This document shows positions 1,836 to 6,744 of a stretch of DNA of 63,010 nucleotides, in pieces. The notes beneath the pieces are model-generated. The model was given only the letters and a program-made list of their open reading frames with translations. It did not search any database and was not told the DNA's origin. A program made the position numbers and the translations under genes. Source of the DNA: a virus. The stretch is from positions 1 through 63,010 of IMG/VR virus record IMGVR_UViG_3300044638_001695; one strand, 5' to 3'. Every line of letters starts with the position of its first letter. Positions within the stretch are counted from its first letter, which is position 1.

Positions 1836-2612
1836 GCTTTGCCCTGCGGCAAGAGCGCCAATCCTTAACTCTGTATCGTTAAAGTCCTCCCCCTCTACAT
1901 CAGAGAACCAAGCAGGACGATTAGCTTGCTTGGCTACCTTGATACCAGTAGCATCTCTATCCCCCACAACAAAACATTCAGGGAAATTCCTTGAGACTTC
2001 AGGGATATTCCCTGCCGAAAAGGTTACATGTATTCTGTACCTTACCCGCACGGTTTTAAGCGCCCTGCGCACCGATAACGCAGTCGCATAGCCCTCTGTA
2101 ACGATGTCGATACCTTTGTTGTCAAAGGTCGCCACAGCCCCTTTGGTGATCTGCCCTGACAGAAACTTCTTATTGCCCGTCTCGTCAATCATCTGGCAAC
2201 CAACCAAGTTCCCATTGATCCGCATGGGGATGATTAATAAGTTATTCCATACCCAACCTTTCTCCTCATCAAACCCTTTCTTGACTAAATACGGGTGGGT
2301 TTGCTTGGAACAGTTGTTAAGTATCCATGCAGCCTTGTCTGCGGCCTTCTTTTGGGCGATTTGGCGGGCTTTTGTAGCTTGGACAGCCTTTGCCCTTTCT
2401 TTCTCTAAATCACGCTTGTAGGGCGTTTCTGAGCGCCACATGATTGGCTCTTCATGAATTGCCCAATTCTGTATGAATGCCACATTACCGCTGAATTTGT
2501 ACGATCCATTCATTTTATGGGGATGGTCTACCGTAGGACACCGCACCCACTTGTCTGTAATCAGGGTCTTAATAATTAAGCCGTGCGCTTGAGCAAAAGA
2601 TTCGAATGTCAT
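1788..2612 (-). CDS. Toprim-domain DNA primase
   Basis: A 274-residue phage primase. It should make RNA primers for DNA replication. The C-terminal half is a Toprim domain: EGYATALS near residues 173-180 gives the catalytic glutamate E173, and VVGDRDATG gives the DxD pair D218/D220, followed by a DVEGEDFND segment. The N-terminal 50 residues (C25-P...H30...H32) look like a degenerate zinc-binding primase head and a Lys/Ala-rich helix links the two. It has no helicase domain of its own; the helicase is encoded just upstream with a 4-base ATGA overlap, so the two form a replication pair. Confidence 0.88.
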   Translation of the reverse strand: MTFESFAQAHGLIIKTLITDKWVRCPTVDHPHKMNGSYKFSGNVAFIQNWAIHEEPIMWRSETPYKRDLEKERAKAVQATKARQIAQKKAADKAAWILNNCSKQTHPYLVKKGFDEEKGWVWNNLLIIPMRINGNLVGCQMIDETGNKKFLSGQITKGAVATFDNKGIDIVTEGYATALSVRRALKTVRVRYRIHVTFSAGNIPEVSRNFPECFVVGDRDATGIKVAKQANRPAWFSDVEGEDFNDTELRIGALAAGQSLLDSFMRAGKDAVVK

Positions 2613-4087
2613 GCTGCTTTCGCCTTGGCTTTGGCAAACGCAATGGTTCGTGACTTGATCCAGTTCAGAACTTCAGGCGACGGATGTTTGGGAGAGGATG
2701 ATAAGCCGTTAGGTGCGCTATTGAATTTCTCTTTGTACTTGTGGTACGCCCAGCCAGTCTTGTATCCCTTGACCTGTGCATACCAAATTAACTGTGAATA
2801 GAATTCCTGATTGTTGATGACAAGCTTCTTGTTTGCGGCTTCTAACTCTTTTAGTTCGCCGGGTACAGCCTCAACCGTGGACATCCTGACCTTAACAAAG
2901 CCACACGCACCGCAAGTATCAGACTTAAATGTCCACAACACTTGGCACTTGGGACACTTAGACTCTTTCTTCTCTCGCTCTGTTGGTTCTTTCTTTGTGG
3001 CCTCACCGCCTTCCCTTAACTCTGATACGCCGTTTGCATACACCTCATCCCAGTCGTCTCTGAACCTAATGTAATTTCCGGCATGGTCAAGCCATAGGGC
3101 AAAGTCTTTGCCTTCGTGGGGGCGCAGGATCCGGCCTATCTGTTGCACATGGGAGGAGAATGACTTGGAGAAAGGTCTAGCTGATATCCCGATGCGGACA
3201 TCTGATACATCGAATCCTTTTGTCAGGATATCTGTAGCGATCAAGCCGTTGATTGCGGTGTCTGGCCTAGAGAAGTCTTCAATTGTCATTCTCTTGAAGT
3301 CGTCATCCTCTTTGTATGAGATTGATACAAAGTTATACCCTGCGGCATTGAATTGTTTCTCTAAGTCTCTGCCGTGGTCAACGCCTGAACAGAACACGAT
3401 TGTCTTCTTTGGCTCGCCAAATACTTCGTGTGTCTTTTTAACCCATTCAGAAACGATATCCCCAGTGATCTTCATGCCTCTAGTTGTGACATCATCTGCC
3501 GACCATTCGCCCGCAATCTTCTTGGCTCCTGTCATGTCAATCTCTTTGGCGATATATACCTTGAGTGGACACAACAAACCTTTCTCTACAAGTTTCTCTG
3601 TGGGTATGGCGCTTACTACATTTGTATACAGATTAGCCAATCCTTTTGTGAATGGCGTGGCGGTCAAGCCGATCACCTTCATCTGTGGATTGTCTTTTAT
3701 GTAGTCAATGATTGATTTATGTAAGACGTGGGTTTCGTCATACAAAAGAAGATCAGGCGTAGCCATCTTCTTGCGCTTTGCCAGAGTTTGTATTGAACAT
3801 ATTTGTATGCGCTCTGACGGGCGATACCGCCAGTGGCTAGACTGCATCACGCCGTGATCAATCTGATACTTGCCTAGACGCAGACTGGTTTGCTCGACAA
3901 GGACAATCCTATCCATGACCATTGCAGAACGCTGATAACTCATTGCGTACTCGTTCATGATAGCGATGGCGCACTCTGTCTTTCCTGCGCCTGTCGGAGC
4001 GTATAAAAGCTGCCGAGCATGTCCTTGTTCGAAACCTTCTTTTAACTTCTGTAATGCAGACTGCTGATGCTCTCTTAACTCAAGCAT
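2609..4087 (-). CDS. superfamily 2 DEAD/DEAH-like helicase with C-terminal zinc ribbon
   Basis: A 492-residue SF2 helicase, probably the replication or recombination-dependent helicase. Walker A is APTGAGKTE (G33-T37), motif II is DETH (117-120), motif III is GLTATPF (140-146), and motif VI is QQIGRILRP (315-323). After a charged linker, four cysteines at about 378, 381, 392 and 395 form a zinc ribbon (CPKC...CGAC), then an Ala/Lys-rich tail. The layout matches UvsW/RadD-like phage helicases. It lies in one operon with the primase. A DnaB-type replicative helicase is not found elsewhere in the window. Confidence 0.9.
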   Translation of the reverse strand: MLELREHQQSALQKLKEGFEQGHARQLLYAPTGAGKTECAIAIMNEYAMSYQRSAMVMDRIVLVEQTSLRLGKYQIDHGVMQSSHWRYRPSERIQICSIQTLAKRKKMATPDLLLYDETHVLHKSIIDYIKDNPQMKVIGLTATPFTKGLANLYTNVVSAIPTEKLVEKGLLCPLKVYIAKEIDMTGAKKIAGEWSADDVTTRGMKITGDIVSEWVKKTHEVFGEPKKTIVFCSGVDHGRDLEKQFNAAGYNFVSISYKEDDDFKRMTIEDFSRPDTAINGLIATDILTKGFDVSDVRIGISARPFSKSFSSHVQQIGRILRPHEGKDFALWLDHAGNYIRFRDDWDEVYANGVSELREGGEATKKEPTEREKKESKCPKCQVLWTFKSDTCGACGFVKVRMSTVEAVPGELKELEAANKKLVINNQEFYSQLIWYAQVKGYKTGWAYHKYKEKFNSAPNGLSSSPKHPSPEVLNWIKSRTIAFAKAKAKAA

Positions 4088-4127
4088 GAGTTTCTCCTGA
4101 CCGGAAACCGCCGGACTTCGGGTTTGT

Positions 4128-4928
4128 TTAAGCTGCTACTCTTTCTGCGCGTTTCTTCCAGTAGCTGATCTGTTTAAGCATATCAGCATTCTTGGATAGA
4201 AGTTGATCTCGTGAAGACTTTAAAGCATTGTTCTCTGCCTCAAGGGTTTTGATCTGCGCTCTTAACTCTTCAACGGTAGATTGATACTGTTCTTTCTCTT
4301 CAGGTGTTACATCTAAAGCTTTAACTGCTAGCCGGTCTTTCAAGGCGGTGAGTTCTTCTGCAAGCTCTACATTCGCCGTGGCAAGTTCTTGAATGTGATC
4401 CTCTCGTGGGTCATGCACTGGCTCTTCAGCTTTGCGGCCTATGTTGTCAGTCTTGATGACTGTCTCATTGCCTTGCTTGTTAATGTATTTCTTTTCTGTT
4501 TGCTCAAGGTTCAGAGACTTTCGGATCCTGCCAACTGTCATAGCAGATACATTGCAGTGTTTGGCAATCACTCTGTCAGACCACTCAGCCCATTCCATAT
4601 CATCGAGCAATGTCATAACGGCTTTGCGTCTGTCATCTGGTGTGCGGCGCAATCCATGATCGCTATTAACACCTACCGCATACAACACGGCATCTCGTAG
4701 TGTGCCGTTCAATACATCAACTGATACATCCTCAACACCGGCTTTCTTGTATGCAAAGTAACGATGATACCCATCGACTAAGTAGTAATGAATGCCATCA
4801 AAGAACGCCGTGATGTTTGGGAATACCGTGCCATTCAATATCTCATCGGCATATTCGGTTACTACATCCTGATTGATTGATACCCGTGATTGTGTTTGCT
4901 TGTTAAGTTGTATATCTTTAATTTTCAT
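4128..4928 (-). CDS. ParB-like protein with HTH and coiled coil
   Basis: A 266-residue protein with a ParB/sulfiredoxin-type N-domain whose core motif is DGYHRYFAYKKAG (52-64), where chromosomal ParB has GERRxRA. A helix-turn-helix follows at about 116-138 (WSDRVIAKHCNVSAMTVGRI), then a long coiled coil to the end. I chose ATG 4928: the AAAGG ribosome site is 6 bases before it and touches the alternative ATG at 4934. No parA is found in the window, yet two perfect parS sites are (55331, 55480). The changed box II makes CTP use uncertain. It could be a partition, spreading or nuclease protein. Confidence 0.8.
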   Translation of the reverse strand: MKIKDIQLNKQTQSRVSINQDVVTEYADEILNGTVFPNITAFFDGIHYYLVDGYHRYFAYKKAGVEDVSVDVLNGTLRDAVLYAVGVNSDHGLRRTPDDRRKAVMTLLDDMEWAEWSDRVIAKHCNVSAMTVGRIRKSLNLEQTEKKYINKQGNETVIKTDNIGRKAEEPVHDPREDHIQELATANVELAEELTALKDRLAVKALDVTPEEKEQYQSTVEELRAQIKTLEAENNALKSSRDQLLSKNADMLKQISYWKKRAERVAA

Positions 4929-4992
4929 TGTCATCCTTTAGACGAGCCAAAGCCACTGCGGGTGCAGACGGCCTGTAAGTGTATGTTTTCAT
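4918..4992 (-). CDS. possible leader ORF, 24 aa, overlapping the ParB-like start
   Basis: ATG at 4992 directly follows GGGGAAGAGG, and the frame stays open for 24 codons (MKTYTYRPSAPA...), stopping 11 bases inside the ParB-like gene. The ribosome site of ParB lies within it, so ribosomes ending here could re-start on ParB. The spacing between ribosome site and ATG is very short, and the peptide has no known relative, so this may be chance. Confidence 0.35.
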   Translation of the reverse strand: MKTYTYRPSAPAVALARLKDDNEN

Positions 4993-5079: not shown

Positions 5080-5322
5080 TTATAACATTGTTAACTGAAC
5101 AACAAACTCTTCCTTCGCTTGTTGATACTCTTCGTCTACAAACGGTTTATCTAACTTCTTGTTATTAACTTGACACATGACACACACCCGTCTACCAAGG
5201 TTTGTTTCACTTACTGAGTATTTCTTTTTCTTCATGCTACTAGTTGAGTACAACTTGCACACTGTATCAAACCCAGTCCAGTAGTGTGCTGTTCCGTCGC
5301 TAACTTTCTTAATCAGATACAT
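5080..5322 (-). CDS. small phage protein, 80 aa, CxxC motif
   Basis: Preceded by AAGGAGTTGTC, a strong ribosome site. The product has a CVMC pair in its middle, a basic KKKKYS run, and an acidic C-terminus. A TATACT at 5357-5352 could be its -10 box but the -35 is poor. Its 3' end and the 145 bases after it lead into the ParB-like gene. No family recognised. Confidence 0.7.
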   Translation of the reverse strand: MYLIKKVSDGTAHYWTGFDTVCKLYSTSSMKKKKYSVSETNLGRRVCVMCQVNNKKLDKPFVDEEYQQAKEEFVVQLTML

Positions 5323-5359
5323 GACAACTCCTTATGCAGATTAGGAAACAGAGTATAGA

Positions 5360-6150
5360 TTTGGTCAAATACTCCCCAAAGGCGGCTCATCTGAGTCACC
5401 TTCGAGAAGAATCCAATGTCATGCGGATTTAGGGGTCCAGTTGCATGAGTTTGGGTTGCGCCTATCGAGAAATGTTCTATCGCAACTAATCAGACTGTAA
5501 GCCCCCATTGTTCGAGGCCACGTTGCCGCTCTGACCGAGCTTGACACTACGGGGCGCTTGTTTCCGGCTCTCCCACCAGATTGACCTGATGGAGCTGTTC
5601 ATCGCGTGATTCAAACCCGTAGCCGCTATCTACTCCCACGGCTGGCGCTTACGCTTAGTTCGCCACTTCCATCTGCATACCCAACGCGGTTGTCCCTGAA
5701 CGTATATGCAAATGAGTTTGCGACAGCCATAAAAAAACCCTTATTGAAAGATACGAGCTTTAGGCTTGGTTGCCGCATAAGAGGGATGCACGACCATCTT
5801 CTCTCAGCTTTGACGAAGCCCGCTCCTTCAATAAGGGTTCGGGTCGCTATCGTGGGCTACCGATGGGTTACCAATCCACCAGATGAAACGAATATTAACG
5901 GACAAATAAACAAAATGCAAGTGTGGGGTCACATAAAGCAGTGTCGAAATCGGATCGGCGAAGAGTGCGAGTGCCTGCCAAGGTACTCATGGTTCCATAG
6001 CCACAGGGCGCTAACCCCTGTTCCCCACGAGAAAATAATACTACAAAAGGTGAAGCCCCGAACTTTTTGAGCTGGGGCTTCGGGGGATGCACGAGGAGAG
6101 TGCTCTGTCGGAGAAACAGACCAAGGAGGGACTTGGTATCTTAATGTAAC
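5360..6150. ncRNA. candidate large structured non-coding RNA (strand unresolved)
   Basis: The 960 bases from 5323 to 6282 hold no credible gene, which is unique in this gene-dense genome. They are full of perfect stems: AATCC/GGATT (5411-5429), GTTGCG/CGCAAC (about 5455-5486), AGCCG/CGGCT (about 5621-5642), TGGCG/CGCCA (5643-5665), GCAAA-TGAG-TTTGC (about 5708-5721), a 13-bp arm pair (5736-5748 with 5827-5839), GAGTGCCT-GCCA-AGGTACTC (about 5969-5988), ACAGGG/CCCTGT (about 6003-6021), GAAGCCCC/GGGGCTTC (about 6052-6081), TCTGT/ACAGA and ACCAAG-GAGGGA-CTTGGT (about 6120-6137). Large phage RNAs such as GOLLD or ROOL have this size and style, but I cannot match their consensus by eye. A replication origin is the main alternative. 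Confidence 0.45.
5729..5839 (-). other. closed multi-stem element with 13-bp terminal helix and T-tract
   Basis: AACCCTTATTGAA (5736-5748) pairs perfectly with TTCAATAAGGGTT (5827-5839). Inside it GAGC (5755-5758) pairs GCTC (5822-5825), GGCTT (5763-5767) pairs AAGCC (5816-5820), and AGAG-GGATG...CATC-CTCT closes a hairpin. On the minus strand the outer helix is followed by seven T residues, so it could act as a terminator or as the 3' end of a small RNA of about 110 bases. Confidence 0.55.
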
Positions 6151-6179
6151 AAAAAAAAGGGCAACCTACAAGATTGCCC
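6151..6179 (-). terminator. rho-independent terminator, minus strand (distal)
   Basis: Stem GGGCAA (6159-6164) with TTGCCC (6174-6179), loop of 9 bases, followed on the minus strand by eight T residues (6158-6151). It lies downstream of the RuvC-like gene and behind a second terminator, so it seems a back-up that insulates the hairpin-rich region. Confidence 0.85.
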
Positions 6180-6222
6180 CTAAACAAGGAGATGCCCTGA
6201 ACTAGGCACACTTCATTCTAAC

Positions 6223-6251
6223 AAAAAAAAAGGGAATCTTGCAGGATTCCC
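6223..6251 (-). terminator. rho-independent terminator, minus strand (proximal)
   Basis: Stem GGGAAT (6232-6237) with ATTCCC (6246-6251), loop of 8 bases, followed on the minus strand by nine T residues. It starts 32 bases after the stop of the RuvC-like gene and should end that transcript. Confidence 0.88.
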
Positions 6252-6282
6252 TCGGGTGTCCACAAAGGCTATAAATGGACAA

Positions 6283-6744
6283 TTAATTGTACCTCAACCA
6301 AAGAGCTATAAGTAAAGCGTCCGCCCTTCCATGATGTTTAGCCAGTCGTAACTGAGCGTCAGGCCATATCCTACGAGCTAACTCCAGACTGGCTTTCTTC
6401 TCCGTGCCTATAAGCCCGTGGTGCTTCTTCCATACCTGTGGGCGAACCAAGGTAAGGGTATCCCCAACAAGCGCTCCTACGGCCTCTATAGCGCCCGCTG
6501 CACGCATAAACTTCCCTGACGATGCAATGCCCTGCCCCGGCATAGTATGCACATCCTCTACGGCTATGTGGGTAGGTAGATCATTCCAGATTAACTCCAT
6601 CAACTCAACGGCATTGATACGCCCGTCTGTTGTTGGAAGATCACCACACCCTACATACAGGCCATCTTGATCAATAGCTCCCCACGCTCCGGAAGCACTG
6701 CCGGGATCAATTCCTACGAAAACTTTCTTTTCCACGCTTGACAT
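6283..6744 (-). CDS. RuvC-like Holliday junction resolvase
   Basis: A 153-residue RNase H-fold nuclease that should cut branched DNA made during recombination or before packaging. The acidic residues stand where RuvC has them: D13 in VGIDPGSASG, E63 in AVEDVHTMPGQG, and D142 in GRADALLIALW. Length fits phage RuvC. It is a single-gene unit, with a divergent promoter region on one side and two terminators on the other. It probably works with the exonuclease, ERF and SSB-like proteins of the divergent operon. Confidence 0.88.
   Translation of the reverse strand: MSSVEKKVFVGIDPGSASGAWGAIDQDGLYVGCGDLPTTDGRINAVELMELIWNDLPTHIAVEDVHTMPGQGIASSGKFMRAAGAIEAVGALVGDTLTLVRPQVWKKHHGLIGTEKKASLELARRIWPDAQLRLAKHHGRADALLIALWLRYN

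Follow-up and report, generated by a model that had tools for sequence, protein, structure and literature searches.

A modular structured RNA locus on the minus strand of a phage genome combines a conserved 5' element with exchangeable 3' modules

GOLLD and ROOL are large structured RNAs of phages that are abundant and conserved, and still unexplained. ROOL is a phage RNA of several hundred nucleotides that is often found near tRNAs, and GOLLD is likewise associated with tRNAs (PMC12286853). The locus analysed here resembles ROOL as a large structured phage RNA with tRNA genes beside the loci of some relatives, but the two differ in their modular layout. With GOLLD it has in common the large structured RNA, the occurrence of tRNA genes in or close to certain loci and the combination of a conserved with a variable part, but in the present locus it is the 5' part that is conserved and the 3' part that is swapped. 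Among other phage RNAs, the small phi29-type packaging RNA (pRNA) carries loops that are variable in sequence yet always complementary, and the P4 CI and P1/P7 c4 RNAs are models for trans-acting attenuation and immunity. A 2017 paper of candidate structured RNAs is said to have described RF02932, which forms part of some of the loci discussed below.

The window, by which we mean the whole stretch of 63,010 bases that was analysed, is a complete IMG/VR virus record. Its portal protein is about 42-44% identical to the portals of Pelagibacter phages HTVC027P and HTVC023P and of Synechococcus phage MinM2. A primase, a helicase, a PD-(D/E)XK nuclease and a ParB-like protein are also encoded, and no tRNA genes were found in the window itself. 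The gap 5323-6282 is bounded by a Holliday junction resolvase-like gene and an ORF of 80 amino acids, both on the minus strand (Table 1). The original prediction had described these 960 bases as a hairpin-rich region without a credible gene and as a possible new RNA or a member of the GOLLD/ROOL class.

In the suggested check against Rfam, nothing in the window reached the gathering score of any family; six weak matches at E<=10, all within 6110-6400 and each below gathering score, were set aside as chance or terminators. Neither covariance models nor ARAGORN gave a match in the window to a tRNA or tmRNA, a group I intron, OLE or HEARO. The model of the conserved 3' region of GOLLD (RF02032) matched none of 30 carrier records at E<=10 and did not reach its gathering score in the window; the ROOL model (RF03087) likewise matched none of 30 carrier records at E<=10, though no control genome gave a match to it. 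ROOL also went unmatched when the window and 38 loci were scanned against the whole of Rfam with cmscan. Membership in the GOLLD/ROOL class is thus not supported, for ROOL on the strength of a search with a silent control, and we regard the locus as a probably new phage RNA, mosaic in make-up and similar to GOLLD and ROOL in kind rather than one of them.

The lack of a credible gene was upheld by comparison with the related locus L003 (related loci carry L numbers throughout). ORFs inside the gap show substitutions spread evenly over the three codon positions (20/15/16), and the homologous strand has stops in all frames; their coding potential was therefore rejected. The neighbouring ORF of 80 amino acids, compared in the same way, shows the expected third-position excess (15/11/25). 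Relative to shuffled sequences the region folds with z = -4.80 on the minus strand and z = -3.01 on the plus strand. We take the minus strand as the sense strand of the RNA, because of the promoters, the U-runs and the helices of the element d homologs, which hold 141 G-U against 9 A-C cells. It follows that in the direction of transcription the two intrinsic terminators come after the resolvase gene and before the RNAs, and do not follow the RNA as had been proposed from a reading of their order on the wrong strand. A replication origin, whose signals the original prediction had named as evidence against an RNA, was rejected: the window holds three DnaA boxes, as by chance, none of them within the gap, and the turn in skew coincides with the switch of gene strand.

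The original prediction stood in part. The region is structured and non-coding, but its 960 bases hold several units and not one RNA; on the minus strand these are RNA b, unit c, element d with its promoter, and a module of about 400 nt (Table 1).

Table 1. Positions of the features of the RNA locus and of its neighbours in the window
Feature	Position	Strand	Remarks
ParB-like gene, after the 80-aa ORF	4128-4934		
80-aa ORF, downstream neighbour	5080-5322	-	kept in L003 and L004
3' structured module, type G	5330-5727	-	77-85% identity to L087, L005 and L088
Element d, conserved 5' RNA (about 155 nt) with a U-run at its end	5731-5886	-	covariance model R1, 125 bits in the window
Element d, 3' arm of closing helix P2, then U-run (about 5736-5730)	5736-5751	-	pairs with 5824-5839
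Pseudoknot arm 2, TCGTG, hypervariable	5789-5793	-	
Element d, 5' arm of closing helix P2	5824-5839	-	pairs with 5736-5751; compensatory changes
Pseudoknot arm 1, CACGA, hypervariable	5850-5854	-	
Promoter of element d, TTGCAT-17-TAATAT	5892-5920	-	sigma70-type match
Unit c, multi-stem, closed by GTGGGG/CCCCAC	5923-6028	-	kept in L003, L004 and L006
RNA b, three C-rich-loop hairpins, then a terminator-like hairpin	6040-6138	-	fold z -4.26
Promoter of RNA b, TTGTAG-17-TACATT	6143-6171	-	equal spacing in L003-L007
Intrinsic terminator 2, overlaps the promoter of RNA b in sequence	6157-6181	-	terminator scan
Intrinsic terminator 1, likely that of the resolvase gene	6230-6253	-	terminator scan
Holliday junction resolvase-like gene, upstream neighbour	6283-6744	-	phrog_1770, E 1.3e-28

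RNA b was seen solely in close relatives. Its promoter is weak in the window and better in relatives (e.g. TTGCAG-17-TATATT), the 17-base spacing being constant. The three hairpins (6121-6136, 6105-6119 and 6089-6103) carry the loops UCCCUCC, UUCUCCG and UCUCCUC, which resemble an anti-Shine-Dalgarno sequence (CCUCC/CUCC) and are kept in L003-L007 while the stems vary. The terminator-like hairpin GAAGCCCC/GGGGCUUC at 6052-6081 contains the GAAGCCCC stem that had been noticed earlier. RNA b could repress the translation of many mRNAs. The 8-bp stem with a GCCA loop, also noticed earlier, was found by direct reading of the sequence at 5970-5989. By itself, unit c has weak folding support (z just -1.07). 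In L003 an insertion of about 1.9 kb that carries several ORFs (about 2365-4250) falls precisely at the junction of unit c with the element d promoter, so that the two units are separable.

Element d is composed of a 5' hairpin, a pseudoknot, a long helix and a terminator-like U-run. The search motif for its core (TTCGTCAAAGCT, 15-45 bases, GGCAACCAAGCC) was found in 84 IMG/VR stretches; since the motif served for collecting these, its invariance among them is partly a product of selection, from which the rest of the fold is free. The exact motif was absent from 84,980 bacterial and archaeal genomes, and the covariance model R1 gave no match at E<=1e-4 among 399 genomes of the order to which the MAG L104 belongs, in a search run without a positive control. 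Blastn searches of GenBank phages gave no match either, whether the query was the region itself or a consensus-like copy of element d, and a search of part of the journal literature found no description of the element d RNA.

Sixty element d sequences align with the promoter immediately ahead. A sigma70 match of at least 9/12 was found at the promoter site in 73% of 62 homologs, against 0.8% at random places, the window's own promoter being weak (7/12). RNAalifold predicted 35 pairs, 22 of them with compensatory double changes. In the covariance model alignment of 62 sequences, standard pairs fill 91.3% of the cells, against 75.2% in shuffles, and the covariation score of 0.459 (0.172 in shuffles) was reached in none of 500 shuffles. 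Double-change cells number 415, against 146 in shuffles, and no slid register came near. Covariation, for which R-scape had been recommended, was thus confirmed by a shuffle test, and the long closing helix of the original prediction was recovered as P2 (16 nt, 94% complementary). An alignment that included the divergent L006 (A2) was dropped, as L006 was misaligned. This locus has a divergent 5' element at about 3382-3555, in which the hairpin loop TTGGAAC matches GTTCCAA in the helix, with a type E head behind it.

The non-coding sequence behind element d sorts into about ten types. That of the window, type G, has 104 predicted pairs, 14 of which show compensatory double changes among four sequences; alone, the module folds with z just -1.43. 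Sharing of the 3' parts is mosaic, exemplified by L036, which joins the head of L040 to the middle of L046. Type H, found behind element d in L034 and L093, is the Rfam family RF02932 (Betaproteobacteria-1), whose threshold of 49.4 bits is reached in these loci and others and not in the window. RF02932 therefore equals one 3' module behind element d, but the family covers 120 nt only, without 5' elements, and the type G module of the window does not match it.

A search with the pattern of the RF02932 module gave 27 viral stretches and one beta-proteobacterial MAG (L104). The newly found stretches lack element d and have other 5' elements in its place, with no evident sequence similarity and with the layout of element d: a promoter, a 5' hairpin, a long helix with a U-run, and a hairpin whose loop complements the helix interior. 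Two more 3' heads were collected, in 112 and at least 120 stretches. Immediately upstream of the heads A, DE and H, a long helix with a U-run was present in 175 of 209 cases (84%), against 19 of 400 random places. Loop pairing of at least 7 bases was found in 22 of the 23 members of class d2 (20 distinct sequences; 6.2 when shuffled) and in 12 of 12 members of class d3 (9 distinct; 2.6 when shuffled). All nine combinations of d, d2 and d3 with heads A, DE and H were observed. The circular podovirus genome L128 has d3 joined to head A, and in the circular siphovirus genome L127 d2 is joined to RF02932, just after tRNA-like sequences. Classes d2 to d4 gave no Rfam match. Homologs, covariation, promoters and this widespread modular architecture bear out the view of the region as a new large structured phage RNA. 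In MW202545.1 (5652-6109) and MW202484.1 (33533-33892) hypothetical proteins are annotated over RNA loci of these types, and are probably spurious.

No separate promoter was recognised for the 3' modules, from which we infer one transcript with partial read-through. Against a single transcript, strong terminators follow the 3' modules in just 11 of 68 loci, so that any 3' end of the long type G RNA is provisional. The two parts may instead be independent neighbours, since element d is followed immediately by an ORF, without a 3' module, in L051 and L098, since RF02932 occurs without a 5' element in L111 and in bacterial genomes, and since the helix with its U-run is terminator-like. In that case element d would be a self-contained sRNA gene of the ordinary kind, its pseudoknot intramolecular; the 3' modules would be RNA genes in their own right, adjacent by chance, and the pairing would drift neutrally. 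The arrangement of a promoter, an RNA and a GC-rich helix with a U-run on one strand does fit the layout of an sRNA gene with an intrinsic terminator. We nevertheless consider this explanation unlikely, as the 84% of 3' heads with a U-run helix directly ahead have no other promoter recognised there, and as the pseudoknot changes far faster than the other helices (see below). RF02932 without a phage-type 5' element was also seen in L129, L131, L132, L133 and L136, all from the order of MAG L104, and genome G318 has three RF02932 matches.

By their terminases the carriers of element d form two lineages, one with 62-76% and the other with 35-43% identity to the TerL of the window. Upstream of the locus they encode a resolvase, primase, TerL, VRR-NUC or ERF, and downstream ParB, HNH, a 2OG-oxygenase or others; these names come from sequence reading and PHROGs, with a profile test for part of them. 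In many loci the structured RNA ends shortly ahead of an ORF, as would a cis-regulatory leader or riboswitch of downstream genes. Such a role is scarcely credible here, because the genes behind the locus share no relationship (ParB, HNH and 2OG oxygenase are among them), a diversity that argues against a riboswitch for one gene, and because the RNA has its own U-run with several hundred nucleotides more of structured RNA in between. In 14 loci (e.g. L037, L047 and L074) an HNH-like endonuclease gene lies right after the 3' module on the same strand, at about +475 from element d, and is possibly a homing endonuclease that uses the RNA locus. tRNA genes adjoin L028, L049, L060, L080, L126 and L127, and some sit inside a locus. 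One arm of the type D module (L027 3327-3442, minus strand; also L039 and L025) is formed by a tRNA-like domain that is degenerate and carries a long insert; the L027 copy scores 33.7 bits against the tRNA family. Blastn with other 3' modules matched, among GenBank phages, the uncultured Manatee Spring phages alone.

The pseudoknot of element d joins the single-stranded segment after the 5' hairpin (e.g. TTCACTGAA) to an inner hairpin loop (GTCAGTG). At least six contiguous Watson-Crick pairs were found in 56 of 62 sequences, against a mean of 3.1 (sd 1.6, maximum 10) when the partners were shuffled, with 41 distinct pairs of pseudoknot sequences; the window's own has just five Watson-Crick pairs plus one G-U. 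A column-wise count on the covariance model alignment gave 51.5% paired, a value blurred by a one-base register shift, and for this reason the per-sequence permutation test was preferred. Between relatives with under 5% divergence elsewhere, 25-36% of the pseudoknot positions are changed, against 8% for the inner stem P3, 1% for the 5' hairpin and 0% for P2, figures that come from 28 pairs of few lineages. L025 and L027 are identical outside the pseudoknot and differ in two of its six pairs. That the pseudoknot outpaces the other helices yet stays complementary is unexpected for a helix merely holding a fold, and suggests selection for different, matched codes. The rapid change could in part be relaxed sequence constraint, and the pairing is equally possible inside one molecule.

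Matched complementary segments and termination are also properties of the small P4 CI and P1 c4 phage RNAs, but element d has no second target copy nearby and no Rfam match. By analogy with these, the short terminated RNA might pair in trans with a like nascent transcript and force its termination at the U-run, the code defining an immunity group. Consistent with such RNA-based immunity or attenuation are the promoter, the matched hypervariable complementarity and the terminator-like helix across unrelated 5' classes. It appears rather doubtful to us, as no excess of further copies of the pairing motif was found in the 400 nt ahead of element d or the 600 nt behind it, whereas P4 leaders carry repeated target sequences, and as the genes downstream vary between phages. 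A cis-acting antiterminator like HK022 put, in which the 5' RNA would alter RNA polymerase and thereby carry transcription past the RNA's own terminator and those further on into the genes behind, could account for the promoter-proximal RNA, the terminator-like helix and the same-strand downstream genes in most loci. This is very improbable: the RNA cannot finish folding before the 3' arm of the terminator helix has been synthesised; downstream, no conserved gene was found within reach in nine loci, and in five others the gene there is on the opposite strand; and put is not known to need a variable code.

We favour self-specific RNA-RNA recognition. A pairing that changes faster but remains complementary is what one would predict where the RNA of each phage has to match itself while failing to match those of relatives infecting the same cell. 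The likeness to pRNA lies in this variable but matched pairing; the differences are that no family match was found and that the carriers in which a terminase was seen have ordinary TerL genes. Sequence comparison establishes the conservation of the locus, its strand, predicted secondary structure, pseudoknot and promoter position and the exchange of 5' and 3' modules. For its working we lean towards a minus-strand non-coding RNA locus with a bipartite RNA, made up of element d and an exchangeable 3' module, with partial read-through and self-recognition pairing. The promoter would be followed by the compact 5' RNA and then by the structured 3' module, type G in the window. The U-run would stop some transcripts at about 155 nt, while others would continue across it and include the 3' module, reaching about 550 nt. 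The pairing of the 5' segment with the helix interior would serve as a self-recognition code, probably joining RNA copies as in GOLLD, ROOL and the packaging RNA.

The locus adds a further family, carried by well over a hundred phage contigs, to the large structured phage RNAs. Its modular logic is visible and its pairing hypervariable yet matched, and these two properties open its function to swap tests. RF02932, known as an orphan motif, gains a place in a larger architecture. Tentatively, and as a conjecture that we hold well short of conviction, these loci may represent a two-part class of phage RNA with an evolving kissing-pair code at the 5' end and a swappable effector at the 3' end, which would amount to an RNA-only self/non-self system between competing phages.
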